In this document: piece by piece, positions 4,616 through 64,000 of the stretch
Numbering within the stretch: position 1 is the stretch's first letter
Layout: every line of letters starts with the position of its first letter
NCBI GenBank assembly: GCA_030062745.1
Contig: CP099846.1
Coordinates: forward strand, 9,235,432 to 9,299,431
Direction of reading: 5' to 3'
DNA from: Capitulum mitella
Lineage: Eukaryota; Arthropoda; Thecostraca; Pollicipedomorpha; Pollicipedidae
DNA: 64,000 bases
Notes under the pieces: generated by a model
What the model was told of the DNA's origin: nothing
Seen by the model: only the letters and a program-made list of their open reading frames with translations
The model's database searches: none
Made by a program: the position numbers and the translations under genes

Positions 4616-5010
4616 GGACGCGGAAGAGCAACCCGTGGCCCGTCATGGGGTGAAGTTTAACGAGCCTGGCACAGAACAGCACCACGTGGCCCGTCATAAG
4701 GTGAAGTTTCACCAGCCTGGCACGGAACGGCAGCCCGTGACCCGTCATGAGGCGAAAATTACCTAACCTGACACGGAACAGCACCCCGTGGCCAGTCATG
4801 AGGTGAGGTTTAACCAGCACGACACGGACAGCACCCCTTGGCCCGCCTTGAGATGAAGTCTAACGAGCCTGGCACGGAAAAGCGCAACGTGTCCGTTTTG
4901 CGGTGAAGCTTACCAAGCCCCGCACGGAACAGGACCACGTGAACCGTCTTGAGGTGATGTTTAACGAGCCCGGCACAGAATGGGCCAGCACACAACGTGG
5001 CCAGACAATC
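4616..5010. repeat. 51-bp tandem repeat, about 8 units
   Basis: The core GTGGCCCGTCATGAGGTGAA recurs at 4635, 4686, 4737, 4788, 4838, 4889, 4939 and 4997, giving a 51-bp period with two 50-bp units and one longer last unit. The unit equals 17 codons, so on the minus strand it appears as a 17-residue repeat (MTGHG...), but the 1-bp losses shift the frame. I regard it as a minisatellite rather than a coding repeat. Confidence 0.85.
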
Positions 5011-10351: not shown

Positions 10352-10985
10352 TTAACTCTATTCCGTGCTAGGGGAGGGGCAGATTCTGCCCGCCTCATAG
10401 TTGGAAACGGTGCAGCTTTTTGGTGTCTAAAAAACACCAGAAAATATGTGCTCCAAAAACATTTCATGCTACAAAACTTTAAACCTGTGTCTCCATCACC
10501 AAGATACATTATAACCATGTTGAAGAAATTCTAACTTACCAAGACTCTGTCTCCATTCTGGAAGAAGGTATGATGAAATAACTGACTTACAAAAAGAACA
10601 TTAACTTGAACCAGCGTTACCATTTGCAAAATTTTGTACTTCAAAACAAAAATAATACTCCGACACCAAGAACAAAAAAAAAAACAAATTTCCAACCCTG
10701 GCCCCTCCACTCGGTTTTTCGCTCGCCATTCCCGGGCTGTTCGGAGCTGCTTCACGAAACTTGGTGACTTTTCTAAATATGCCTTACATATGTTTAAGCA
10801 GAGTTTCAAAAATTTACCTCCTCATGAAGCGGTTCTACGACACGTTTTTCGGAGGCATGTTTCAAAAATATCGCACTTTCTGGAGATCGCGCATTCCGAT
10901 GTGGTCATGCAATATTTTGATGTCCTTTATAGTATCACGATCCACGGACAGTTCAAATGATCGAAACGTTTGTAACCTGCACAAT
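10352..10985 (+). mobile_element. Relic of a TTAA-ended, piggyBac-like element (left end)
   Basis: It begins TTAACTCTATTCCGTG followed by a GGGCAGATTCTGCCC palindrome, a diverged form of the left end of the intact element at 10,986. A second diverged left-end block (GGTTTTTCGCTCGCCATTCCCGGG ... TTCACGAAACTTGGTGAC) starts near 10,700, so more than one insertion is compressed here. A hairpin (TGGTGT/ACACCA) lies near 10,420-10,440. No transposase frame is present. Confidence 0.6.
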
Positions 10986-12119
10986 TTAACCGTATTCCCG
11001 GCAGGTGGGGCTAAATCCGCCCCCTCGGGTTTTTTGCTTGCCAATTCCAGGGTTTTTGACGCAGCTTCACGGAACTTGGTGACGATTCCTGCCTATTCTT
11101 TCTACGTACTATGACAATATTCGGTAATGCTATTTTGCTCAGAGGCGGAGCCAGGCAACGTTTTCTGGGAGGCACCTCAGGCCATTTTTGGCCTTGTTGA
11201 GGATAAAAGGAAAATGTCTGCCAAAAACAATGTTTTTAAGATAAACCTTGCGTCAAAATTTGGCTTCATAGTAATAATTTTGGCGCTATTTTTCCAAAAG
11301 CCAAACCCAGAATACATAAGACGTAAAAGTTTGCCATGTCCTTGCATATCAACTTTCAGGTTGATATCAGATCGGGTCACGGAGCTATGAACTTAAATGT
11401 CTGAGCGCGTACCCTATATCGCAACAGCCGTAAAATGGAATTTTAGAAACAGAGTGAATTCAAATGATTGGAACCGTTTCCATACAACATGAAATGCACT
11501 CCAGATCATTCCACGCGACTCTAAGGTCACTGAGTGTCACCTCAGGCCAAAGGTCGTAAAATGACCTGAAAAGCATGTGACCATGATAGTTCCCTATTTA
11601 CCATGTCCCTGGTACCGCCTATGCTAACATTATACAAACAGTGTAATACGATTTGTACTTCTTCAGCATAGCCGGGCTAGTAGAAACTAAAAGTCATTTT
11701 AGCTTTTTTAACTAAGTTTTTGAAAACTAATCCCCTGCTTTCGAAAGCCTGTGGATGCCTATGAATTTTCTCAAAATTTCAAATGTATGGACCAATGGTA
11801 GAAGCTCCATTCATAATCTCTAGATTCCTTTTTTCACCAATTTCATCAAAATACGTCCCTAAACAACAGAGTTATAACAAGTCCAAAAATATCCCTCTTT
11901 TCACTTTTTGCGCTTCTGTATCCATCCGTTCCAAAATTTTAAAAATTTGTTATAAAAATGTAGTTTATGTCATGGTAAATCGATTGCCGTTTCCACATAA
12001 AAGGAAATGTTGCTGTGGAATCGGATGAGCAGTTCACGAGATCTCACGGGCGCTGAATCCGCCCCCCCCCCCCTGCTGGGAATCGGCCACACCGTCTAGC
12101 CCTCCAGGAACAGGGTTAA
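10986..12119 (+). mobile_element. Non-autonomous piggyBac-like element, complete copy
   Basis: The 1,134-bp element is flanked by TTAA on both sides (10,986-10,989 and 12,116-12,119), the target duplication of piggyBac-type transposons, and runs from CCGTATTCC to GGAACAGGG. Ends are bipartite: a 12-base outer repeat joins directly to a CAGG...GCGG inner block on the left, but is separated from it by about 28 bases on the right. That recalls the unequal spacers of piggyBac ends. A subterminal G-run/GGATTC/C-run palindrome is present. It is homologous throughout to the inverted copy at 47,768-48,964. No transposase is encoded; mobility would depend on an enzyme supplied elsewhere. Confidence 0.85.
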
Positions 12120-20075: not shown

Positions 20076-20366
20076 TCAGTGCTTGATGCTGAAGCCTTGA
20101 AACGACAATTTAGCCACCTCCCGTTCGTTTCTGAACTCGGCGCGGTCGATCTTGGAGTGCGGGCTGCCGACGTCGCGCAGCCAGCGCTTCATGGCAGCCA
20201 GCGCGTCTGGCGCACCCTGCGCCTGACCGTCCACCGTGTCGTGGCGCGTGTTGCGGCACCAGCCTACCACGCCCAGCCGGCGCGCCTCCTGCTGTGTGTG
20301 CTTCCGGAAGAAGACACCCTGCACGCGGCCGAACACCTCGAAGTCGAAGCTGAACAGGCGTGGCAT
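20076..20366 (-). CDS. Acylphosphatase (EC 3.6.1.7), 96-residue core
   Basis: Hydrolyses the carboxyl-phosphate bond of acyl phosphates such as acetyl phosphate or 1,3-bisphosphoglycerate; normally a small soluble cytosolic enzyme. The 96 residues span the whole family fold. The P-loop-like signature EVFGRVQGVFFR carries the catalytic arginine (R21), followed by GVVGWCRNT with the catalytic asparagine (N39), then VGSPHSKIDRAEF and a C-terminal GFSIKH close to vertebrate ACYP1/ACYP2. The ATG at 20,366 sits in an almost ideal Kozak context (GCCACCATGC), favouring this start. The frame stays open upstream to a splice acceptor, so a longer isoform is possible (next entries). All catalytic residues are intact and no disabling change is seen. 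GC-rich codon use contrasts with the AT-rich intron beside it. No neighbouring gene is functionally linked. Confidence 0.95.
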   Translation of the reverse strand: MPRLFSFDFEVFGRVQGVFFRKHTQQEARRLGVVGWCRNTRHDTVDGQAQGAPDALAAMKRWLRDVGSPHSKIDRAEFRNEREVAKLSFQGFSIKH

Positions 20367-20478
20367 GGTGGCCCCTGACTTCAGTACTGGCAGTGGGCAG
20401 TAGAGCAGAAGTGCTGAGGTCGTCAGGCAAGAGAGACCAATGCAGAGCAATATAGTGCGCAGTCGCCAACCCAGCAAG
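20367..20478 (-). other. 5' part of the last acylphosphatase exon: UTR or N-terminal extension
   Basis: Immediately upstream on the minus strand is TTTTCCCATTACAG|C, a strong acceptor, so the exon starts at 20,478. The 112 bases to the core ATG have no stop in the core frame and would encode a hydrophobic stretch (ILLCIGLSCLTTSALLLYC) preceded by WRLR, as in a signal anchor. The Kozak match of the internal ATG argues that this part may be only 5' UTR. Both products could be made from one transcript by leaky scanning. Confidence 0.55.
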
Positions 20479-21632
20479 CTGTAATGGGAAAACATGCAGG
20501 AATTACAGAAAACATGGCACAAAATCTGTACAATATCAGCTATGTTCTCATAACCAATGAAGCACCTGGCAGATTCCTGCACTCATAAAATGTCTGTGTA
20601 AATATGGCCAATTCAGAACGATTACCCCCAAAAATGATAGAGATGACCAATTTAGTTCATAAATCTATGTCTTTCATGTATAAACCTTTAACTTTAATGT
20701 AAACCTATGTCTTTAATTCAATGTACTTAAGCCTATGACTGAGCAGCTTCATGTCATAAAAGTCATCATAAACCACCAGAATAGGCCACAGCAGTTTAGC
20801 TCTTGCACATACACATCTCAACCTCATTTGCACCAAAGGACTGGAATTGATCTATAATGTGACAAAATGACTTATGCCCAGTTTGCCAGGTCAGCCAATA
20901 ACCAATACCAAACTTAGGTTATAGATGTGCACAGATTTATCTTTAATTTATCAACCTGTAGTTGATGGCAGGCACAAATGATGATTATAATGTTCAACAC
21001 CATTGCTGTGATTTCTATTTCCAGGTTCCAATAGCAATGTTTATGAGGCCTAAATCCCATATTATCCAATCTGGTACTCTTTTGAGGTGCCATGAACCTC
21101 ACTGCTCTCAATACTCAATGCCTGCTTTTAAAAGAAACTTTTAAGTTAATGTATCTCATTATCAAACTGCCACCAAATGCAGATGCTGTTATGCTTTGCA
21201 AAACTGCTGTGGGATGTAATGAGATGTCATGAAAAACAGCATGCCAAAGTCAGATAACATGAGAGGATCCATAGTTAAACTAAAGGTATACATGGGACCA
21301 CCATTAGTTTAATTTTCTACATTTTCAAATGCCTTATGCTGAATTTCACAATTGTGTGACCTTTCCAACATGAAAACTATAGCTTACTACACCCCTGCCA
21401 CAAAAATACATCCCACAAAGCAGTCACAGCTCTCATTGTGCCCTATAGCCTGGTGCTAATCTGACAACTAAACAAGTAATTTCGGCTAAAGGTAAGTTTC
21501 TGCCCAACGAAATCGCACACAATCCTTTAAATAATTGCCACCACTGTAAAGAATGTATCATCCTGTTTCTAACCATACTTTCCACTACTTGATTTTCTAA
21601 AAAATAACAACAAAATCGTAACGATAACGTAC
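20479..21632 (-). other. Predicted acylphosphatase intron, 1,154 bp
   Basis: AT-rich, without recognised repeats. Bounded on the minus strand by a GTACGT donor at 21,632 and the TTTTCCCATTACAG acceptor at 20,479. The acceptor is convincing; the donor was chosen by position and phase. Confidence 0.5.
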
Positions 21633-31904: not shown

Positions 31905-33419
31905 TGTCTCTGTTGAGTCACGTTGCATCAGCCTCTATCACATCAGCCCCACGAAAGTTGTTTATCGGACCAGACGCCCTCGCACACAAGAGCTTGATCT
32001 TCAGGCAGTCTTCAGTCTTCAGTCTTTGACCTTCAACCAAAAGCTTTGGACCCGTTTAAAAGGAGTTCTTTTGTCGAAATTTTTACATATGAATCATTAA
32101 AAGCTCGTCTTAGCTCTGCGTACTGTAGGCAAATCGTCTGGTGACGGGACCAATGTCCAATTGCCTCTCAACAATGTAAACGTTTGGGAACACCGAGGCT
32201 TTTCAGGATTTTTGTCGAGCACCTACTGGTGTATGAGCGTTATTGTACGCAATGTCGTTGCATTATCGTTATTGAAATCGTTTTCGTGGTCAAAATCGTT
32301 AATATTAATCAAAGTTGGTGGAGTCGCCGCCAAGTTGGTAGGACCGTATTCCCACCTGTTCTATGGACTGCTACACACTTGCACTGGGGGTCATGTCCGC
32401 ATTCTCTAGAGTTGGGACAGGTTCCCCGTCCCCCTCCGGCGGGGCCCATGGGGACATTCACGGTCACTACTGCGCTGTCTTTCGAAACCATGGGTCCTGC
32501 GCAGCTGCCACCGTTAGGAAAGAATGGCGGCTGTATTTTTTTTCGAACTCGTGCACGGGGAATACCGTAGGCGGCATTCGTTGCCTGAGTCTTGGAAACC
32601 ATAGCCGCATGAAACGTTGCCATACGCAGCCTGTTTACATAGCTGCCTTTGCTGCTGTTTTCCGGAACCTTCGTTGTTATGACGAAAAGTGCATCGGTTT
32701 TTTCCGTGAAGGACGCGGCTTATTTTTGTCGTCGAATCCGCCGCAACAACAGGTCGGCCAAGGGCAGCCAGGGCGTGCCGATCGTGCCGGCGCCCCTGCT
32801 CCCGGTCGTCCGTAGCCCTGACGCCCCAGTCGGCAGGCTCTGACCCGGCGCGGGGGGCGGCGGGCGTCCGGTGTCGGGGTCAGCGGTCAAAGGTCCCGTC
32901 AGCTCACGGCGTCGAGAAGGCTGGCGTCTGGACGGGCGCGAGGGCACCTGTCCATCCAGTGCGTCGCCGTGCTGCGTCAGTTAGCCGCGGTGCACGAAGC
33001 TCCGAGGCGATTGGTGTCCGACGTGATTTCCCGAGAGAACCGGTGGAGTCGCAGCTGGCGTCCAGGGGCCACAGACGTCCGTCTGACGTCGGTGAACAAG
33101 ATATCGCGCTCATGAGTGGTCCGCATTGTCAGCCGAGCCATTGCGCAGGTCGAGGCTTCGTTTAAGCAAATTCGGTCCTGGTGAATTCTGCCAGCAAGAT
33201 GGTAGGGTCTTTGCTATCGAAGGTTGAACTCGTTAGAGCTAGACGGAACCGCTTACGTGTCACCAAACCAGAGCTGTAGTCCCGGAAGCCTCCACCATTA
33301 GTGTCTCTGAAACCACGAGCGCTGCGATGTCGGCTCCCAGCCGTCTACGTCTGTTCTCTTCGTGTGCCGCTTCGACGCACCGCGTCTATCCGCCCTCTCT
33401 GTGACGTTTTCGCGTGCCT
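31905..33419. other. No gene recognised
   Basis: Ordinary DNA to about 32,740, then GC-rich DNA to about 33,100. No domain, splice-supported exon or repeat family is visible. Confidence 0.4.
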
Positions 33420-33812
33420 TGTTGGGCCTGCCTGTGACGGTCTGGTCCGCTGCAGTCTGCTTCTTTGTGACGGTCTGGTCCACTGCGGCCTGCCTCTCTG
33501 TGACGGTCTGATCCACTGCGGCCTGCCTCCCTGTGACGGTCTGGTCCACTGCGGCCTGCCTCTCTGTGACGGTCTGATCCACTGCGGCCTGCCTCCCTGT
33601 GACGGTCTGATCCACTGCGGCCTGCCTCCCTGTGACGGTCTGGTCCGCCGCGGCCTGCCTCTCTGCGACGGTCTGGTTCGCCGCGGCCTGCCTCCTGGCG
33701 ACGGTCTGGTCCGCCGCCCGCCCTGCCTCCTGGCGACGGTCTGGTTCGCCGCGGCCTGCCTCCTGGCGACGGCCTGGTCCGCCGCGGTCTGCCTCCTGGC
33801 GACGCGCTGGTG
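33420..33812. repeat. 33-bp minisatellite, about 12 units
   Basis: The core GTGACGGTCTGGTCC starts at 33,434 and recurs every 33 bases through 33,698, then continues after a 2-base slip to about 33,799. The unit GCGGCCTGCCTCCCTGTGAC... alternates two variants (GGTCCACT/GATCCACT), a sign of higher-order duplication. Eleven codons per unit keeps several frames open on both strands for up to 255 codons, with 11-residue repeats such as QTVTGRQAAVD. I treat these as by-products, not proteins. Confidence 0.92.
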
Positions 33813-34979
33813 AGAGCGGCCCGGCCAGCGCGGCGTGACGCCCCCGTGACGGCCCTCGTGACTGTCGATCAGCGGAGACCGGCGGCGGCGCGCGGTCCGT
33901 TCGGCCGTGAGGCTGCGGAGCTGTGTTTCGGAGAGGCGGCGGCTGCCCGCAGCGCGGTGCACTGCTCGGAACGCGCTCGACAAACGGCCGGCCGCGGCTG
34001 CAGACTCCCGCTTTGTGGGCAAAACGCGCAATTACCCTGATCTCGCCCGGAGCTGGACCGTGCATGGATGTGCGGTAAACCGGTTAATTGTGCTCAGACA
34101 AAGTCAGTGCCCGAACCGGTTATGGTTACGGTTATGCCCACTGTGCTTCCCTATCCTGTCCACAGACAGGCTGGTCTTTTTCTTCCTGGCTGTTTTTTTG
34201 CAAGAGCCTGTTTGTTTGGATCTCCTGGGAAAATCCAGAGATCTTGCTCTTTGAACATGTATGTTGCTAGTCCTTTTTCGAGATATTATGTTTGGCTTCC
34301 ATAACACGATTGCCATATCCAGACGAAACTTCGGCTATTCAGAATCCTTTCCGGTTAAATCTTCTCTTCTGATTTCCCAGTTTAAGACGAAAATAACGTA
34401 CATGGTAAGGTTATTCCTGCAAGCGTTCTGGAGTTATCACTTTCATCTTCAGAGTAAATTCTTCTACAACGCTAGGATTGAATGGCGTTGATAAGCAACC
34501 CAAAGCCAAATTTAGTACTTAAAATTCAGGAGACATGGTCATCGTTGGTGCCTCACAACATGCCTAACTCAAGTCTATGTCCATAAAGTGAAACTATGTG
34601 GGAATTGCAAACTTCTGCAGTGCTGATATCAATATGGGTGTCTGCGAGTGCAAGGCGAATTCATGAAAGACTCTCTTCTGCTGCAAACACCTTGCGCTTT
34701 CCGACATTTGCATGCAGTCGACCTGCTCTCGGACACGTCACCACGGCTCGTCGGCTCTGATGGAGATGGTGTGGGCGATCTGCTCACGAGGGGGTGGACC
34801 GGGCGCTCACCCCTCTCAGCCCTAATGACCTTCAGAAGCACACCGGGGCGGCCGCTTGCCCGGCGTCTGGCGCCGCGCCCCGCCACCGTTCATCACCGGT
34901 GTCGGGTAATGGGCCGTACCTGAGGCGAGCGGAGCGGGACAAAAACGTCCCCTGACTCGCTCCGCCGGTCCGGCTCTCT
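33813..34979. other. No gene recognised
   Basis: A GC-rich shoulder of the array to about 34,020, then ordinary DNA. Nothing coding can be supported. Confidence 0.4.
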
Positions 34980-36139: not shown

Positions 36140-36650
36140 TTGACGGGACCCGACATAGGTCGTCAGCGGTCAGCAGGACCCGACACATAGGCCTTCAGCG
36201 GTCAGTAGGACTCGACACACAGGCCGTGAACAGTCAACATGAACTGACACAGCAGCCAGCGACCAGTAGGAGCTGGCACAGACTGTCAGCAGTCAACTTG
36301 AACTGAAGCGCACCGTCAGCGGTCACCAGGACCTTACACACAGGCCGTCAGCGATCAGCATGAACTGACATAGACCGTCGGCGGTCAGTGGGAACTGACG
36401 CAGACCGTCAGCGGCCATCAGGACCCGACACAGGCAGCCAGCGTCTAGCCGGAACTGACACAGGCCGTCAGCGTCCAGCTGGAACTGACATAGACCGTCA
36501 ATGGTCAGCGGGAACTGACACAGACCGTCAATGGTTAGCGGGAACTGACACAGACCGTCAGTGGTCTGCGGGAACCGACACAGACCGTCAGTGGTCAGCG
36601 GGAACCGACATAGACCGTCAGAGGTCAGCGGGAACCGACAGAGGCGAGCC
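36140..36650. repeat. 30-bp minisatellite, about 17 units
   Basis: The unit is GACCGTCAGTGGTCAGCGGGAACTGACACA. Left units are diverged and the right-hand units (36,480-36,650) are nearly identical, so the array seems to have grown or homogenised most recently on its right side. Ten codons per unit leaves a 187-codon plus-strand frame with GTDTDRQWSA repeats, read as a by-product. Confidence 0.9.
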
Positions 36651-39600
36651 TAGTTCTGCCGTCGGTCCGTCCGAGACGGCGCGCGGCCTGCTGTGCCGCC
36701 TTTCCGGCCGGCGGCGGGCTTGGTCGGCCTTGGAGCGGTCCGGCGGGCGGCGTCCGTCGATCGGCGGCCGGGCCGGCCGGCCGGAGCCGATCGGCCCGGC
36801 GATAGCGCCGCCGCCGCCGCCGAACCGGCATGCAAATCAGCGGCGCGGCTGCAGCGGCGCCGGCCGGCTCAGGCTCAGCACGGCCGGCTGGAGTCGGGGC
36901 ACGCGCGCCAGCACGCCGGAGTTACGGTACAGGCTGGGCGGTACGGGCTGACGGCGTGGGCGAGGCAACTGTCGCCGCATAGCCTGTCTTCCCGAGAGTG
37001 AGTTGCGCCTGACCAGAAGTAGAGCGAGGAACGGAGAGGTGGAGAGACGGAAAAAATGAGAGGACAGGCAAGCTGAAGAGCGATAGAGAAGGAAAGAAAA
37101 GAGGACAAATGAAGAATAAAACAAGCTTCTTTCCGGTACGGCACCGTATCACGGGCACAAAATACGACGGCATCCTCCATGCGCCTGCTTTTCAACGTAC
37201 CTCAGCTGTCGGGCTCCGTGCCAAAACCTCATCATCCCGGCAGTCTGAAGACGAAAGTGGTCGTCCGTCGGGCCAGGTTCGGCTCGTCTCAGGTGACGCG
37301 TCGCCGGCCCGGGCCCGGGTAGCGCTGGTGCGGCCGGCTGCCGGTCCGCGACTCGTCGGGCGCCGGTGGCTCGTCAGTCAGGAGGCGGGGCGTGCCGTGC
37401 GAGGTGATGAGCCGGAAACACCGCCGGACGTCGCTGAGAGACCGATCAATCAGGCCGCTCAGGTGGCAAACGAGCCGCCCAGATAACGTGGCTCGTGTTA
37501 CCGCCCGTCAGAACGGCCGCGCCGCCACCGGACGACCTAATCGCAGCGGCGAACGGTCGCAGCCAGTGTCAGAGCGCCGAGATCACCTTGTATCTCGCAG
37601 ATAAAATCAAAGCGAACACATGCTGCATGCAAACCCCGACTGGTGGCAAAGCTCCAAGGGCTTTCGGCATTCATGGCACACGGTTAAGAACATATTTCCA
37701 CCTGGTCCGACGCGAGCCATATACATTTTGCCTTGTTTGATTCTGTTTTGCCGCACCGGGCGTACGCCGACAACAGCTCTGACAATGATCCAGCTCTGGC
37801 CGTGTTGTCGTGACGCTACCTCTGGCCGCGACCTCCGCCAACAGGTCGCCCGTGCCGCGGTCCCTGGGCCGCCAGTGCGGCGTGACCGAGCCTGCCGCGC
37901 CCGGCCGGCCGCCGCTCGACCACCGGCCCGCCTAATGTCGTCCAATTACGGAGAATTAGCGGCCGGCGCGGAGCGCTACACCCGGCACCGTCCGTCCCGG
38001 TCCGGCCGGCCGCTCAGAGCGCGGCCGGATGCCCGCCAGCCTGACGCGGGATGGCTACCGTTCGAAAGAGGACACCGACACGGTCCTGGGTGTCTTAACA
38101 GGCAAGGGTCCGCCACTGGACCACACGTGGGTGCTGTGGTTTTATGACACCTTTTTATGCAATGCCTGGGAACGCAGTGATGAGCGAGGCCGCAGTGGAG
38201 TTACCTCAATTAACAAAAAATAAATTGAGCGATCTGCACGGCCGTAAAGTTTTGTCGGAGTCTCCTTCGCAAACACTGGGCACCGAATGATTAAATTTGC
38301 ACTAGAAGACGGCGCAGTTCTTTACATTTTACGGATTTTTCTTTGCAATGCGTCAGACTGCAAGTTCTTGGGTTTACATAACTGTTCCGAGAGTAATGTT
38401 TTCACTCTCAACTAATTTTTTGCGGACGATTTTGAACCGTTTAGTAGTGATAATGACCAGTATCATGGATGTTTAGACTCGTAAATCCTCGGGTAAAAAT
38501 GCTGAAATGGATCGACAAATGTCCATTTGTGTTGCGAAATGCAACAGGTAAATCATTGATCCAGGCAGCAATGGAGCAGGCCTCGCTCGTCATGCAGCAC
38601 ACAAAACGACTTATTGGTGTTAGATATCTTCTCTGGTGAAGCGGATGATAGCTCGTGTTGTACACATTTGGCCCACCAGCTCATCTTGATAAAGAGAGCG
38701 AAGCTTGCGTCGCTGCTGTTTTTGGCCGGGGTCATTTCAGCTCCAATTTCCGTTTCCGCTCCAATCAGCTATCCGTGAATCCCTCCCCGGGTCATTCACC
38801 GGCGTCATTTCGGAGCGCCCTCTCCCCCTCCCCCATGTTGGCCGCACAATTCCGTTGAACGCGCAGAAACGGCGGCGATCAGTTTCAGCGTCTGATCCGC
38901 AATTCAATCCAATCAGAGTGCGGCGGGAGACTGCGGCGGCCGCCGCTCATTTCGGGCTTCCTGTCGGCCGGCGTCTCACACTCCTCTGGCAGCCAATGAA
39001 TGCATTTGGCGTCCGGTCCTTGCGGGCGTCCCCGCCGCCGGAGTGGGGCCACTGACCGCCGCTGCTGGACGCTGCCCGGAACAAACACAACGCGTGGCCG
39101 GCAGCCGTGAAACAGCGCTCACGTGGACGTGCACGGGGCGGCCCGCCCCCCTCTGGAGCCAGTCATGCGGTCAGCGCACTTCCCCTGGTCCGCTCCCGCT
39201 CCCACTGTTCCCCTTCGACGGGACGCCACATCCAAGGCCCATTGTCTCAGCGCCGCATTATGGACCAGCGAACGCAGCCATCTATTTACGCCATTCGACC
39301 ACACTGAGGACGGAGATGGGAAAGTGGCAACTAGTATGAGTTACACTCCGAAGCAGACACTCAGGATTAGTGTTACCAGCATAGGCATTCAGAAGCATTA
39401 GGAGCTCTTGAATCCCTGAATTCTGTGCCAACTCAGAGATCCGGCCCGATGTTTTCTGGTGACAGTACGTCACGATGCAGAGAGTGGCAGGCTCGCAGCC
39501 GACTCGGCGACCGTCACCATCCATACCTCTCGACCCCGCCCTGCTGGCTGGCATGGCGTGTTCCGAGCTCTGGTGGCGTGGTGGCGTTTGTGCATCGCGG

Positions 39601-47767: not shown

Positions 47768-48964
47768 TCAACCCTATTTCCGGAGGGCTAGACGGTATGG
47801 TCGATTCTCGGCAGGGGGGTGGATTCGGCCCCCCCTGAGATCTCGAGAACTACACATCCGATTTCATCGCAACAAACGGCAATCGATTTGCCGTGACGTG
47901 AACTATAGTTTTATAAAAAGAAATTTTCACAATTTTGAAATGTGTGGATACAGGGGGAAAAAATGTCAAAATGGGGGTATTTTTGGACTTCTCATAATTT
48001 CCGTTGTTTATCGACAGATTTCAATGAAACTGGTATGAATCGAGAGATAATGGATAGCGCTTTTGCCATGGGTACAGAAACCTGAAATTTTCAGAAAATT
48101 CATGGTCGTTCACAGGGTTTCAAAAATAGGAGGATTAGTTTTCTAACAACTGAATGAACAAAAGAGAAAAAAACACTTTTTTGGCTTCTGCTAGTCATGT
48201 TATGCTAAAGAAGCATAAATCGCATTACAATATTTGTATAATGTTAGCATAGGCTGTGCCATGGACATGAAAAAAGGGAGCTGTCATAGTCACACGTTCT
48301 TCAGATCAACCTGTGGCCTTTGACCTTAAATGATCTCCAGTGACCTTGGGGTCACTTGGAATGATCTTATCTGCATTTAATATTATCTGTAAATGTTTTC
48401 AATCATTTAAATTCACTCTATTTCAAAAATTTCGTTTTATGGCTATTGCGATATAGGGTACGCGTACTAACATTTTAGGTCATAGCTCCGTGACCCGACC
48501 TGATATCAGGCTGAAACTTGATACACAAGTAGAGGGCACCGTTCTACATGATATATATTCCGGGTTTGGTATTTGAAAAAAAACGGCGCCGAAATTATTG
48601 CAAAAAAATATTTGACTTTTGATCTTGACCTGACTTTGTAAAGTGACCTCAGATGAACAAAATTACATCTGCGCATTGCCCAACTACTTAGCTATACATC
48701 CATATAAAGGTTAAAAACTCTGTTTTTGGCAGACATTTTTCTTTTACCCTCAAATGGCTAAAAATGGCCTGAGGTGCCTCCCAAAAACGTTGCCTGGCTC
48801 CACCCGTGAGCAAAATAGAATTTTGAAATTTTGACACGACACGTAGAAAGAATAGCTAGGAAAAGTCACCAAGTTTCGTGAAGCTGCGTTGAAAAGCCTG
48901 GAATTGGCAAGCAAAAAACCGAAGGGGGGCGGATTCCGCCCCCCACTGCCCGGAATAGGGTTAA
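47768..48964 (-). mobile_element. Non-autonomous piggyBac-like element, complete inverted copy
   Basis: The 1,197-bp element runs from TCAA|CCCTATTTCC (a TTAA with one change, 47,768-47,771) to GGAATAGGG|TTAA (48,961-48,964). It aligns along its length, reversed, with the copy at 10,986-12,119. It keeps the right-end spacer of 28 bases (AGGGCTAGACGG ... ATTCTCGG) between outer and inner end blocks. The left-end palindrome GGGGGGCGGATTCCGCCCCCC is intact apart from one base. No transposase. Frames inside it, such as that starting at 47,652, are incidental. Confidence 0.88.
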
Positions 48965-53456: not shown

Positions 53457-54454
53457 CCGGTCTCGACCGTCCGGCGCGGCTAGCGTCCAGACGCAGACTG
53501 GTCTGCTGCGGGTTCTCGACGCCTGACCTGCAGGCGCAGACTGCTGGTGAGCCCCGGCGCCGCGCCTGCGCGTTCCTCAGCCTTCAGACGCCGCCGGAAA
53601 CGCTCGCTCATTCGCGTCACGTGCCGCGGCCGGATCCGGGCCGGCCCTGCGGTTGCACGCAGACCTCAGACGGTGCGCGGACGGCGACTCGTTAGCCTAA
53701 TTAGCGGCCGACAAGCTCCGCAATCTGCCGCAATCTTCCGAGTCCTCACCTGGCGGCTGTGTCTGCAGGTACTGCGCGAATCTGCAGATACCGGCAGTGT
53801 CTGCAGCTACCGGGAGAGTCTGCAGCTGCCCGCAGAGTCTTGACCGACCGTCCCGCGCACACAGTGATGCGTACATAGCTCCGGAGACAGAGGGCAAAAC
53901 TAATGAGGTGAAATTGGATCAAGTCCGCGGTCTACTTGGAACCATACAATACAGCACACCATTGACCACTGCCACAAAATGCGTGGCTCTGGACGACGTC
54001 AGGTCCTGCTGCATCTGCGCTCCTCCGCGCCGCTGCCAGAAATCACAGATAATCTGTCCATCCAACGCCGACACCTGGCCTGGGCGTTTAAGGCTCGGCA
54101 TCCGGAGATCTTGCGATGCTCCAGCTTAACCAGCTGCACATCCTCCGGTTCCATCAGACAGGAGATAGCTGGCTGTAATCAAACTTCAGAAAGGCCAGGC
54201 CAGACCTGGGAAAGCTGGACGGAACCCAGCGAGACCCGGCGAGACGTGGCGAGACTGGACGTGCCGCCGCAGTTGTCTCGGCTGGCTGACGGGAGCTCAC
54301 TGGTCGTAATTGTGACTCCGTAATGAGGAGTCACAAATCGACCGGGCGTAATGCGGCGTAATAGCGCGGCCGGGCCGCACTCGGAGTGGGCAGCCCATAA
54401 AGACGGCCCGGCCGGGCGCCGCCGGCTGCGGCCGCCTCTGGAAGAGTTGTTGAC
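53457..54454. other. No gene recognised
   Basis: Contains short CTGCAGATACCGG/CTGCAGCTACCGG repeats at 53,763-53,835. No coding evidence. Confidence 0.4.
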
Positions 54455-54650
54455 CCCGGCCATCCCGATCCCGGCCGTTCCAACTTCAGCCGTCTTGACC
54501 TCAGCTGCTGTCCTGACCCCAGCCGTTCTGACCTCGGCCATCCTCACCATAGCTGCCGTCCCGACCTCAACCGTCCCGACCCCGGCCGTCCTGACCTCAG
54601 CTGCCGTCCTGACCTCAGCTGCCGTCCTGACGCCGGCCGTTCGGAGCCCG
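54455..54650 (+). repeat. 15/18-bp minisatellite
   Basis: Alternating CTGACCTCAGCTGCCGTC (18 bp) and CCGACCCCGGCCGTC (15 bp) units. Both are whole codons, so a 152-codon frame reading AVLTSAAVLTPAVL repeats stays open. Considered a by-product. Confidence 0.85.
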
Positions 54651-55994
54651 GCCGGCGGTCCGTCCGATGGTCGGGACAGCCCCGGTCCTCTGTCCCAGAG
54701 AGATCACCTCCCGCCGAGCGGCTGGGAGAGTCGCCCGGCGCAGCGCCGTCCAGCCGTGGGAAGGCAGCCAGAAGCGCACCGCAGCGATCGGACCACGGCA
54801 GACCGGTGATGCTTTAATGGGCGGCCACAAAGAGCGGAGCGGAAGCGTCCCGTTGGCCGGCCTCTCGCCGCCAAACGCTCGTCGCCCGAGCTGGCCTGCT
54901 CGCTGACCCGCTCCACCCAGGCGGCGTCCGGTGGCGGCTGCTCCGCCGGCGAACTGTCCCGGACTCACACGGACTCACCCGGACTCGCCGGCGGCAGCCG
55001 CTTCGTGCAGCGCCAGGTCGGCGCCCTTTGTCGTGTTTCGCTCGCCCGCGAAGAGAATTGCAGCGTCTCCGTACGTGCCGTATGGGCGCTCAACCACACT
55101 TATGTGCCCGGGACGCAGTCGGTCGTGCTTTGTTGCTCTAACCGTGGCCAACAACCGATGGCAGCGGGGCTTACAGGTCCGGTGAGGGACGACATTACGG
55201 GCAACGATCCGGATGCAAGAAAGGACGCCCCTGCCCCCACGTCCGTTATTCGCGTGGTAGACGGGGGCACTAGAATGGGTGGAGAGATTTTCTTACTGGG
55301 ATGGAGGAGGACGCTGAGGATCGCGCCGTGGCTTCTCCGCCAGAAGCTGAGCTATTCGCTTGATGGTCACCTGTGTCGGCAGGCCAACTTGAAAACGGCT
55401 TGAAAAATATTTTTATCGCCTCAGAACATCTGGTGTGAATAAATTCACTCAATGATATGGGGTGACCTAAAGTCGAAACATGAAGTCGTTATGCGGCCTG
55501 ATTCATTGATTATTGGGGCTAAGGGACGCACCGACTTCGAGGTGATTCGGCGCCCATTCGGCCTGTTTCATGTCATGTCATGAAAACTAGTGCGTTTTTA
55601 TGGCTGACCTGAGGAAGATGGACTGAATATGGAAATTTAGTTTTTGTCCTATGCTGACTGTTTTCAAACGCCACAGCTGTTGTATCGACAGCAACTCGGA
55701 GACAGTGATCAGTGCTAGTCGAGTCTCCCGGACTCGCACTGATCTAATTCGTCATTGTCTTTTCGCGTGATAGAAAATCAACGCTGCAAAGAGGGCTAGC
55801 AGCTTGCTGAAGACTTGATCATGTCAGCAGATTGCCGATGACTGGTGAGCTCGTAGCAACTCGTACCGCAGCAAGAGCATTCTGAAGCTTGGACGACACA
55901 GTGATTGGAAGCTGAAACATGACATGGCTTCCAGATGTGAAACATGGTAGGGTCAAAGCCAACTGTCGTCAGCTGATTTTAGCTAGGCTTGACC
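54651..55994. other. No gene recognised
   Basis: GC-rich to about 55,080, then ordinary DNA. No exon or repeat is supported. Confidence 0.4.
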
Positions 55995-59200: not shown

Positions 59201-61609
59201 ACCAAGCACCTCGCGAAGAACACTCCGGCGCCCTCCGCCACGCTCGGCCGGCCCAGAGACATAGTGAGCTCATTTGAGCCCGTGCCCGGTGGGGTCCCGT
59301 TTCCGCCCCCTGTCCCCACGCTGTCGTCCCGGCGCGCCCCCGTGAACCGCAACAGCGCCGGACCTGCTCATCTGCGGCCGGCTCCCACGAGCGCCGCCAG
59401 TAGGCGGCCGGCCTTCCGTGTCGGCGGGCGGTGAGCGGTGCCGCGGCGGCCGCTGCACGTGTTAACGGTCCTCCGCCAGCCAAAAATGGGTCCCGTCCCC
59501 GGGCCTTACCCGGGCTGGCCGGCACTGGGGGGGCCTTGAGGGCCGGACTCCTGGGGGGGGCAACAATTGGGCGATGCCGAGGTTCGGTTGGGGTCCGACG
59601 GGGTCCGGGTGGCTATGAGGACGTGTTCAGAGGCGCAATACCGCGACCACGGCAGTCGCCCCTACTGTGACAGGGGTGGGGGACGCTTCAAATGTAGAAG
59701 GCCGGCGGGTGAAGATGCTGGAGCTGGAACTGGCGGTGGGGAAGTCGCGTACGGAGCGAGTCGTAAGATAACAATGCCGCAAATGTGTGAACGGTGAGAA
59801 TTTTGTCCGGTTTTGCGGTGCTGGTTTGCGGCACACCATTTTTTCTGATACAGAAAAGTACGATGTTCTGCACATTATGCCTGCCCGTGGCCTGTGAAGC
59901 AATGCTGGAGGGCACAGGAGCTTTGGTCTACTCAGCTGTCGGTGGCATTGCATTCAATTTCGGAAAAGCGTGGTGCATAACTACGTCAAAATTACTTTTG
60001 TCCCCTCCTCGCGGGGCTCGCAATCCTTAAGGCGCGTGTGAGCTGGAACACATGCCGCATCCTGTCCCGGCCAGCGTGGCGCCTTCCCGGAGTTTGGCTG
60101 GGTCTATTTCCTCCCGGGGTGTCAACGGAGAGCCACCGCCTCGCGAAGTTCTGCAGCCGCCGCTGGTGGCGGCATCGACCACAGCGCTGCAGGTTATCGC
60201 TCGTTTTAGCCGTGCTCGCCAGCTCTCAGAACGTCAGTGTGCAGCGTTTACGGCCTTAAACAAAACCATCGGGCGGGCCTCACGAGGCCTCCGTTCTGGC
60301 TGTACCTCTGGTATCGGCTTGTGATCAAGGTCGTGAATACAGCGCCCTTCCGAGCAGTGGTCGCTACAAGCGAATGCACGTGAACAGTTATCGGCGGCCA
60401 TCTAGTGGACAGGGTGGTTTTCCTGCCGCGCCCGTCCTTCCATCTCATTAAGGCGCCTGCGGCCTGCGGTTCGTCGGGCCGCCGTGGCGTGCCGGCGTTG
60501 TCGGTCGGACAGACGTGTGCGGCCCTCCGTATCTGGATACCCGAGCTCCATAAATGACACGATTTGTGTCTGTTCACTGTTTCGATGAACAGGAAAATAA
60601 AGACCAAAGGAGCCCTCATGCCCAGTGGCTGCAGGAAGACGGGGATCCTGGTCGTTATTTCCCGCGCCTGTTGGTATGGGATGGGCTATGGGCTATGGGC
60701 CTGCTTGGAGGTTTGAGATCATTTATATCTGTGGTATTTGAATGTTCAAGCAAACTCCGTCAATGGCGAGAACCGTCAACAGCTCTGTCCTGATGAAATT
60801 ACTGACGTCGCCAGGCAAAATGACGGTCGTACCGTCCTGATCCGTACATCATCACCCACCCGGTTTTTCATGCGCTCCGTCCGAATCTGCCCGGCTGCTG
60901 ACGTCACGTGACCTCCCTCCTCTCAGAGACGCCCCGTTTGCTGAGCGTCAGAGTCGTCCTGTTTACGGAGCGGCTCGGTCGGCCGGACCCAGTGCCGGCC
61001 GTCTCGGCTGCCGTTCCGGGCCGCTTCCCGGGCCGCGTTCCAGACCGCACAATGGCCCGATCTGGCCGCCCGAGGTGTGGCTCTTTGGTGGCGGCTTGTC
61101 GGGCGTCACGCGCCGATGCGCCGTCACCGAGCGGCGCCTACTTCCCCGGCCGTCGGGCTGGGCGCCCCCCGCAGGTCCGCGGGCAATCACGCTCTGCCGA
61201 GGTGCTAATGAGCTCCAGCAGTCGATCGTCACGCATCATTGCGCATCGGGGATAGCGGTAGCTGGTTCATCTGATCAGAGTCTTTTAATTACCCACGAAC
61301 GACCGTGAAAGCGGGCCATGGTTTGAACGCCGCCACGTTTATCTCGATCTTGACTGTCCTCTTTGGCTTCGCGTACAAGTGTCCGTGCGCTCTCTCACGC
61401 GGCGCTTTCAGCTATTTATGCTCATGATTCTTCGCCACGGTGTTTCCTGACGGCGAAGTGGTGCAACGAGTGCGAGGATTTCGTCGAGATGGCGAACCGA
61501 TAGTCTCGCAACGTCGTTTGCTCTTGGCAACGGCTACGCATAGTCCGTCTTATGTCCTAGGCTGGTTCCGTCAAACGCAGCGTCAGAACATCAGAACCCC
61601 TGAGCGACG
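56225..61609. other. No gene recognised
   Basis: Mixed DNA with a pyrimidine-rich strand at 57,627-57,695 and GC islands at about 59,290-59,560 and 60,960-61,210. A GGTAGCTCAG word on the minus strand near 57,205 resembles an A box but lacks a supporting D-arm. A 149-codon plus-strand frame (58,111-58,560) has no recognised domain. Confidence 0.4.
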
Positions 61610-61925
61610 AACCGGCAGACGGCACAGACGGGACTGGCAGACGGCAAGCCGGGGCCGGCTGACGGCACAGCCGGGGCCGGCAGAGGCACAACCGGGACCG
61701 GCAGACGGCACAGACGGGACCGGCAGACGGCAAGCCGGGGCCGGCTGACGGCACAGCCGGGGCCGGCAGAGGCACAACCGGGACCGGCAGACGGCGCAGA
61801 CGGGAACCGGCAGACGGCAAGCCGGGGCCGGCTGACGGCACAGCCGGGGCCGGCAGAGGCACAACCGGGACCGGCAGACGGCGCAGACGGGACCGTCAGA
61901 CAGCACAGACGGGACCGGCCACCGA
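61610..61925. repeat. 86-bp higher-order minisatellite built of ~21-bp subunits
   Basis: The marker GGCAAGCCGGGGCCGGC starts at 61,643, 61,729 and 61,816 (86, then 87 bases). Each 86-bp unit contains four related subunits (GGGACCGGCAGACGGCACAGAC, GCCGGCTGACGGCACA, GCCGGCAGAGGCACAAC and similar). The simultaneous open frames on the minus strand (SAGPGLPSAG, CRQPAPACRLPVP) are by-products. Confidence 0.9.
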
Positions 61926-63432
61926 CGCGGCGGTGGGCGCGGCCCTCTCCACTGTCGCTGCGGACACCGCCGAGCCTCGCTCGCCGCCCGCTCACAGGCG
62001 CCAAGCACAACTGACGTGCTGTCACGGTGCAAACTGGAGCGGTACTGCGCTAAATGGATGCGTTCAGTCGCTGACTGCCTTGCGCGCCGTTCGTTTGTTG
62101 GAATTAAAACTGCCGCAGATGAGTCATTCATATTTGCAGACCTCTTCTAGGCAAGTACTTGTATTAATGCGCACAACCGAAATAGACCCCAGTCAACCGT
62201 TTCATTGTATAGAAGGTTAAGTAGATAATGCAATTGTTTGTCAATGTCAGCTTTATGTGGGCAAATGATGCAGGACCAATACATTCTTGGTTTAAGCACT
62301 CACGGTGCGGGCAGCCGCTTTCATGGAGTATCTCTGTCGTCCAGTGAATCAATGACAGCCGCCAGCGACCTGGCCAGTCAAGCGAACTCGCTGGCCCCGC
62401 GGCGGCCGGCGACCTTGACCCGGTCACTGGCCCAGGCCAAGGGGGGGGGAAAGGCACGCCGACAACGGCGAAACGCGCTTAGCCACGCACGCCGGCAAAA
62501 CTACGCCCCAGCTCGTGCGAGGCCGACTGCTCGTGAGGCGTTCCTCATGTGTGCAGTGGCCCCTGGGACTCAGGTTGTAGGGGCTTTTGGTTATACGTGG
62601 CTGAAGTAACGACGCAACTGCTTTTCAGATACAGGAGATGCTCGTTGGGTGTAAGCAATGGAAATTATTCCTGGTGCAATCTTAGGAACATTTTGCCGCT
62701 AAGCAAAGCATGTGGTCATGCGCCTACTTTCTGCCGCATGAAAAAATGGTTGGTAAACTTTGTCAGAGCGAGTCCGAATCCCCATTCCTGAGTCTCAGGG
62801 TGAGCCAGAAATGTGGATCCTCGATGGCGGATCTTTATCAGATCTGCCGAGTAGTTGGTACCCCCCTCCCCTCGGTCGTAGCCTTGTCTTCTGTGATGTT
62901 TATAATCCCGCCGAAGGCCAGGTAACTGGTCACTGATGAACTGACATGACGCCAAGTACTTCGCTTTGAACTTTATACGGTGCTTGGATGATGTGCATTG
63001 TTACGACTGGTTGAGCATTCGAGATTTTTTAAACACGAACACGGTGCTTCAAGACAAATTCTAACGCTGATAATCCGGAACTGGGTACGTTGCAGTCCAT
63101 TTGTTACGCAGACCGTCTATTTTTATGCCATACAGGAATGTAACTTTTTGAAATGAATTGTTAATGCCCGGACATATATAACATTGGGGATTTAAAGTCA
63201 TTGTGGGTGCTCAGTGTTCACGCCAGAGGGTTCCATGCTAAATGACAAACTTTTAAGGTGCGACACACAATTTTGGTTGTGGGGACGGGACATGAGTCGG
63301 GCATGGCCAACACTCTCTCCAAATAAGGAAATGATCTCGAGCTCTTAATGTTTAATTCGAAGGTAATTTTGTTTCAATTACCCACGAAAGCACATGCCCC
63401 ATTAGTTCCCTGATTTTCCCAATTATTGCCAT
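61926..63432. other. No gene recognised
   Basis: Ordinary DNA without recognised repeats or exons. Confidence 0.4.
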
Positions 63433-64000
63433 TTAACCCTATTCCCGGCAGGGGGCGGAATCCGCCCCCCATCGGGTTTTTTGCTTGCCAATTCCAGGCT
63501 TTTTGATGCAGCTTCACGAAACTTGGTGACTTGTCCTAGCTATTCAATCCACGTGCTGTGACAAAATTTCAAAGTTCTTTTTTGTCCAGGGGCGGAGCCA
63601 GGCAACGTTTTTGGGAGGCACCTCATGCCATTTTTAGGCCATGTTAAGGGTAAAAGTAAAATGGCTGCCAAAAACAGAGTTTTAAAGATAGAACTTAAAA
63701 CTTTATATAGATGCATAGCTAAATAGTTGGGCAATGTGCAGATTTAATTTTGTTCACCTGAGGTCATTTTACAAGGTCAGGTCAAAGTCAAAAGTCAAAA
63801 TTTGTTTTTTCGCAATAATTTCGGCGCCGTCTTTTCAAATGCCAAACCCGAAATATATATGACGTAGAAGGGTGCCTTCTACTTGTGTACCAAGTTTCAG
63901 CTTGATATCAGGTCGGGTCACGGAGCTATGATCTAAAATGTCAGTGCGCGTAGTCTATATCGCAAGAGCCATAAAATGATTTTTTTGAAATAGAGTGAAT
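63433..64000 (+). mobile_element. piggyBac-like element, left part, cut by the window end
   Basis: Starts TTAA|CCCTATTCCCGG (63,433) with the subterminal palindrome GGGGGCGGAATCCGCCCCC. It continues colinear with the copies at 10,986 and 47,768 (shared phrases TTCACGAAACTTGGTGAC, GGGCGGAGCCAGGCAACG, GGTCGGGTCACGGAGCTATG). The remaining right half lies outside the window. Confidence 0.88.

Follow-up and report, generated by a model that had tools for sequence, protein, structure and literature searches.

A long, transposase-free transposon family, probably of piggyBac type, with ends offset by 28 bp in Capitulum mitella

Copies of the element in the window and in the genome

The window, which is the whole stretch of 64,000 nucleotides of Capitulum mitella DNA that was analysed, carries three copies of a transposable element, the left end of a diverged relative and a further diverged fragment. 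In coordinates of the window, the features are:

10352..10396, + strand: left end of a diverged relative, TTAA|CTCTATTCC followed by a palindrome with other letters, GGGGCAGA-T-TCTGCCCG
10711..10773, + strand: diverged fragment corresponding approximately to element positions 36-106
10986..12119, + strand: copy 1, complete non-autonomous element flanked by TTAA at either end (read directly and by alignment)
10990..11001, + strand: copy 1, left outer repeat CCGTATTCCCGG
11002..11024, + strand: copy 1, left inner block, abutting the outer repeat; a decayed palindrome with 6/8 pairs
12047..12083, + strand: copy 1, right inner block and duplicated half-site (complement of ATTCCCAGCA)
12084..12103, + strand: copy 1, 20-bp spacer of the right end (complement of AGGGCTAGACGGTGTGGCCG)
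12104..12115, + strand: copy 1, right outer repeat, followed by TTAA at 12116-12119
47768..48964, - strand: copy 2, complete element, left TTAA at 48961-48964
47814..47835, - strand: copy 2, right inner block, set 28 bp deeper than the left block
48924..48944, - strand: copy 2, left inner palindrome GGGGGGCGGA-A-TCCGCCCCCC
63433..64000, + strand: copy 3, left part, continuing past the window
63451..63469, + strand: copy 3, left inner palindrome GGGGGCGGA-A-TCCGCCCCC

All three copies are real and align as one family. The original prediction had each of them begin with TTAA followed directly by the same outer repeat, which needs correction for copy 1, as this copy starts TTAA|CCGTATTCC with one mismatch. 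Copy 3 is complete and ends at base 647 of the next 10 kb (L010) with an intact TTAA. The right TTAA is intact in copy 1 as well, but that of copy 2 (47768-47771) has mutated to TTGA. Copy 1 is older and diverged, with a K2P distance of 0.18 from the consensus at non-CpG sites. When the window was searched for TTAACCCTATTCC with up to two mismatches, 7 matches were obtained, compared to a mean of 1.26 and a maximum of 4 in 100 shuffles.

Elsewhere in the window, a frame on the - strand (20076-20582) encodes an acylphosphatase domain (PF00708, 1.7e-21). At about 33300-34080, 36360-36950, 54180-54700 and 61580-62150, long open frames encode peptide units in repeated form and are apparently minisatellite arrays.

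In the genome, which comprises 477,042,490 bases in 16 contigs, the exact left-end 17-mer TTAACCCTATTCCCGGC matched 6,143 times and the exact right-end 24-mer CCCTATTCCCGGAGGGCTAGACGG 5,118 times. The reversed-pattern controls both gave 0 matches, and the element ends are therefore not due to chance. Twenty 10-kb stretches on 15 contigs held five near-full copies (L024, L025, L028 and two in L030), about 25 per Mb. This corresponds to a family size in the order of 10,000 copies, or 3% of all genomic sequence, a rough figure extrapolated from 200 kb. Length was assessed by pairing the first 100 left ends on contig C1 with 89 of the 100 listed right ends, the 11 that lay beyond the compared stretch being omitted. 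Sixty-three left ends paired with an exact right end, all at a distance of 1,164-1,238 bp and none of them longer in a search up to 8 kb, while 37 had no exact right partner within 8 kb and 26 right ends were left unpaired.

That the element is free of a transposase gene had been predicted, and this was confirmed: in the two consensus sequences, the longest frames span 76 and 69 codons. Translated comparison with the six long transposase frames found in this genome (see below) gave a best E value of 5.8, compared to 0 for a control locus, and Rfam yielded no match at gathering scores in two loci of the element. The absence of coding capacity, the uniform length of paired copies and the high copy number are traits of non-autonomous elements and MITEs. 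Typical MITEs are short, usually under about 600 bp, and with about 1.2 kb the element exceeds this length.

The interior of the element contains nine AGGTCA motifs per consensus (mean 0.47, maximum 4 in 1,000 shuffles), a sequence known as a nuclear-receptor half-site. They lie at about positions 331-360 and 627-667 of the consensus, for example at 63760-63800 of the window, and include AGGTCAAAGGTCA. Mismatches in these sites were fewer than in the rest of the element in old copies (13.7% vs 18.3%) and also in young copies (3.2% vs 5.3%). Since the lower value is already found in the young copies, selection is not demonstrated by this difference.

End architecture, insertion sites and age

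The ends were analysed in 36 near-full copies, 28 of which had been fetched for an exact left end and 8 of which came from unselected sequence. Thirty-three were scored; L025 and L046 were dropped on account of a lost end and L047 because of a rearranged right end. In L047 (near base 190-300) and L025 (near base 697) we observed right ends in which the inner palindrome and the half-site are apparently rearranged or expanded.

At the left end, TTAA is followed by CCCT and then by ATTCCCGGCAGGGGGGGGCGGAATCCGCCCCCCC. Read inward, the right end consists of TTAA, CCCT, ATTCCCGG, a 20-bp spacer AGGGCTAGACGGTATGGTCG and then ATTCCCGGCAGGGGGGGCGGATTCGGCCCCCCC. Because ATTCCCGG is present twice on the right and is joined there by the spacer, the whole inner block lies 28 bp further in. 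The inner block ATTCCCGGCAGGGG starts 4 bases from the left tip in 33/33 scored copies and 32 bases from the right tip in 32/33, the remaining one being unmatched, so that the right-minus-left offset is 28 in 32 copies. The asymmetry that had been described for the two complete copies in the window, with the inner block directly behind the outer repeat on the left and 28 bases away from it on the right, is hence a property of the entire family. CCCT tips were found at 32 of the 33 left and 32 of the 33 right ends, and CCCTATTCC is present as a whole in 31 left and 29 right ends (26 of the 33 copies had been fetched for the exact left end). The short inverted repeats accordingly carry the motif CC[C/T]T, which is described as terminal in piggyBac elements (PMC2872659).

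The left inner block is palindromic (GGGGGGCGGA, A, TCCGCCCCCC) and centred on bp 27 in the consensus. By the 6-base-arm measure applied to the left block, its counterpart on the right is not a perfect palindrome. Variation in the runs of G and C moves the start of the core between 18 and 28 on the left and between 47 and 54 on the right; measured from core to core, the difference therefore takes values of 21 to 33, despite the block offset of 28.

TTAA abuts 4,728 of the 5,118 exact right ends in the genome and 31 of the 33 right ends of the scored copies. It is also present at 6 of 7 left ends that had not been selected for it, the other left ends having mostly been so selected. The right ends without TTAA are in keeping with decay of four bases, given the median distance of 0.047 of young copies. 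The flanks follow a preference y-TTAA-r, with C or T upstream in 26/33 and A or G downstream in 30/33 copies. Joined flanks of the 33 copies were compared with all fetched sequence, and two matches spanned the junction, both of them to L021 (1483-1812) and stemming from the flanks of window copy 2 and of the copy in L049. These two copies occupy the same position of another repeat, whose relative in L021 has no insertion at this point; its sequence there is CCCCTTCAAAACC, which contains one TTAA-like site, TTCAAA. Compared with L021, the flanks show 68% and 75% identity, while the two inserted copies of the element are 88% identical to each other, which we read as two insertions into one favoured site and not as co-amplification. 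The element thus has the TTAA target duplication of piggyBac, and the check for insertions at non-TTAA sites did not refute the predicted target.

Exact junctions between adjoining copies were encountered as well, left-left at 11 places and right-left at 31, near the 1:2 expected of random orientation. In such cases copies have inserted into the TTAA flanking another copy and share one TTAA, as also seen in L007 and L030. The right-left junctions at C16:7824189 and 7825399 are one element length apart and apparently represent three tandem copies.

Most of the scored copies are young: 29 of the 33 lie 0.03-0.07 from the consensus, with a median non-CpG K2P distance of 0.047. The older ones are L050 (0.10), L032 (0.14), window copy 1 (0.18) and L035 (0.20), and they are of similar length. 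The 28-bp offset is kept in L050, L032 and window copy 1, and the right block of L035 was the unmatched one. More distant relatives with a common interior occur in L024 (3927-2725, 67-73% identity), in L013 (67%) and next to the element in L007 (77-79%). By eye, the distance between the right-end repeats is 28 beside L007 and about 27 in L024. The left palindrome recurs with different letters in the window end at 10352 and in L024, with 7/8 pairs each, a value reached by 0.36% of random 17-mers from the same genome. It is absent from the second element in L030 (5/8 pairs), window copy 1 (6/8) and L013 (4/9). Among these five, with cores picked by eye, the symmetry is therefore retained with changed letters in two and lost in three. 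From the persistence of the layout in some diverged relatives we infer that recognition by an enzyme maintains it.

Candidate sources of the enzyme

To what extent the genome still harbours a matching transposase was addressed with the piggyBac transposase domain PF13843, which gave 118 genome matches, some of them pieces of one gene. Six loci with long transposase frames fall into two families, A and B, with 32-35% protein identity between them. Family A (L051-L054) has tips CCCATTAACGCCCAG at both ends; L053, whose own ends deviate from the end pattern, was assigned to it by DNA similarity. One frame, that of L052 in family A, was compared with solved structures and matched the transposases of piggyBat (9c0f, 2.9e-24) and piggyBac (6x67, 3e-17). 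Family B (L055, L056) has the left end CC[C/T]ATTAGTGCCCA and the right end CCCTTTAGTGC[C/T]CA (also CCCTTTAGTGCCCA), and right ends of this family are also present in L061-L063. Both families share with the element the genome, the TTAA target and CC-rich tips and carry a PF13843 transposase, but their tips are different, and neither an inner palindrome nor a shared segment at 28 was present at the ends of L051, L052 and L055. Matches of stray 10-mers were off register, at 22 and 42 in family A and at 29 and 116 in family B. As the ends of these three loci have no palindrome and no 28-bp shift, the layout alone does not tie the element to the two families, and both were rejected as autonomous partners on account of their differing ends.

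No autonomous element with the same ends was found, these ends being absent from all 14 PF13843 loci that were read in part. Nine of these loci belong to families A and B, four showed no recognisable end in the stretches read and one lies beside a plain copy of the element. A third class of transposase comprises four loci with main pieces 43-63% identical to family A, and no transposon end was present in the 500-800 bp pieces read.

Two individual loci were considered as partners and rejected. The first, C2:27090889-27092445, holds a frame of 593 codons, and no TTAACC[C/T] end occurs in the two flank pieces read, L057 and L064. The second is a transposase match at C5:13879661, with two left ends in head-to-head arrangement at a distance of 2 kb. 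The 120 bases fetched from the point where a plain copy should end contain a normal right end, identical to the consensus over all 70 aligned bases, and this is a plain copy beside a gene. The frame on C2 is intact and piggyBac-like, 50% identical to family A, and is possibly a domesticated gene. At C14:7029500-7032600 (L055), an older copy of the element harbours an inserted autonomous piggyBac of family B, which indicates that family B was active after that copy had arrived. The source of the enzyme that moved the element may be extinct, may lie among the remaining PF13843 loci, one of which, at C1:7018197-7019295, has a frame of 558 codons and is unrelated to A or B, or may be a distant family acting across.

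Relation to known systems and interpretation

In T. ni piggyBac, 35 bp of the left end (LE35) and 63 bp of the right end (RE63) are sufficient, and bp 34-63 of the right end are almost identical to bp 7-35 of the left end, the right end having acquired a 17-bp insertion and a duplication (PMC7351741). The 19-bp inner repeat is palindrome-like and a dimer of C-terminal domains binds bp 17-33, a span that includes the centre of the element's left palindrome at bp 27. A 5-bp insertion in the right end or randomisation of the second repeat reduces activity by about half. Chen et al. call the asymmetric ends puzzling and propose binding by two dimers (PMC7351741). Simple arithmetic (63 minus 35) gives a shift of 28 for T. 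ni piggyBac, and the short and long spacers that had been predicted for the element from canonical piggyBac thus follow the same offset. The likeness extends to the TTAA target, the palindromic inner repeat near the left tip and a right end that is exactly 28 bp longer by way of an insertion and a duplicated segment. The two differ in that the element has a 20-bp insertion and an 8-bp duplication, an inner block rich in G/C runs, a right block that is not a perfect palindrome and no transposase gene. The end sequences themselves we take to be unlike those of T. ni piggyBac.

Asymmetrically placed sub-terminal repeats are described as a characteristic structure of piggyBac-like elements (PMC4273485), and CCC tips together with TTAA are usual, with exceptions, in a survey of small animal genomes (PMC10813416). 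The end layout of the T. ni type is not universal in the superfamily: the ends of piggyBat are arranged otherwise (PMC11707139; PMC13405395), and local families A and B differ from it too. MITEs of piggyBac type with TTAA and CC[C/T]T tips are already known from corals. The CMITE families of Acropora resemble the element in their TTAA target, CCCT-type tips, many copies (about 1,600 estimated) and occasional tandem arrangement; they are about 100 bp in length with plain inverted repeats of 13-14 bp, whereas the element has 1.2 kb and asymmetric bipartite ends (PMC2872659). CMITE family I shares its tips with the autonomous AmiPB1 (PMC2872659), whereas the loci read here revealed no such partner for the element. 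No published account of the element was among the open-licence literature matches listed, judged by titles and the starts of abstracts.

Given these findings, the element is very probably a member of the piggyBac superfamily, a long non-autonomous DNA transposon of about 1.2 kb that was moved in trans by a piggyBac-type transposase. Two other assignments have to be weighed against this one. Kolobok elements also target TTAA, and a Kolobok enzyme is thought to move the abundant T2-MITEs of Xenopus, a long-lived non-autonomous family to which the high copy number of our element could be likened (PMC6004289). The ends of Kolobok elements are given as RR, AG or AGGRR, with AGGRR tips in T2-MITEs (PMC6004289); the element, in contrast, terminates in CCCT at nearly all scored ends on both sides and has an inner block with a 28-bp shift which fits piggyBac, and a Kolobok-type origin appears very unlikely to us. 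It is hardly to be expected, either, that the element belongs to another superfamily targeting TTAA or TA, such as Sola3, Tc1/mariner with ACCC...GGGT ends or an undescribed one. That a linked transposase was not found at the loci read in part would agree with such an origin, and the outermost bases, TTAACCC...GGGTTAA, admit a second reading as TA followed by ACCC ends, but TTAA is whole at 4,728 of the 5,118 right ends, so that the outer bases are kept and not only TA, and the y-TTAA-r flank preference likewise speaks against it.

A different question is whether the asymmetry of the ends has any function. Within the piggyBac superfamily, it could be an accident of ancestry, in which one founder carried a 28-bp insertion in one end and passed it on to all copies, the layout is without function and the match with T. 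ni piggyBac is a coincidence. The 29 young copies, at the median distance given above, stem from a single expansion and are therefore not independent of each other, and the ends of local families A and B that were examined have no such layout, both of which favour an accident. Against it stand the copies at distances of 0.10-0.18 that keep the offset (L050, L032 and window copy 1, whereas L035, at a distance of 0.20, has an unmatched right block), the right ends of the L007 neighbour and of L024 with their distances of 28 and about 27 by eye, and the fact that an insertion, a duplicated half-site and a palindrome come together just as they do in T. ni piggyBac. We consider an accident possible, at less than even chances.

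If the element was mobilised by a piggyBac-type transposase, which the similarities to T. ni piggyBac suggest, this enzyme would act in trans, cleaving at the CCCT tips, generating TTAA hairpins and integrating the element at TTAA. The left and right ends would play different roles. On the left, where the inner palindrome follows 12-14 bp behind the tip, a dimer of zinc-binding C-terminal domains would be placed beside the catalytic core, and by analogy the palindrome is the putative site of these domains. On the right, the 20-bp insertion and the duplicated half-site push the block 28 bp inward and would make room for a second transposase dimer. Two dimers would then presumably bind the ends of the element, a catalytic one that engages the tips and contacts the left palindrome through its C-terminal domains, and another at the inner right block. 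We hypothesize, tentatively, that the 28-bp shift created by insertion plus duplicated half-site is a geometric rule of one class of piggyBac transpososomes and not an oddity of T. ni piggyBac; it could be held to the base pair in apparently unrelated ends, and kept in a long-lived family devoid of transposase, because it sets the spacing between the catalytic and the structural dimer.

For Capitulum mitella, the finding means that a 1.2-kb passenger of piggyBac type makes up roughly 3% of the genome, with an autonomous partner not found so far at the loci read. For the superfamily, ends that look unlike those of T. ni piggyBac and yet show the same 28-bp shift in thousands of copies amount to a natural experiment on the two-dimer model. 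With thousands of ends at hand, conserved positions can be told from free ones, and the spacing rule becomes testable.
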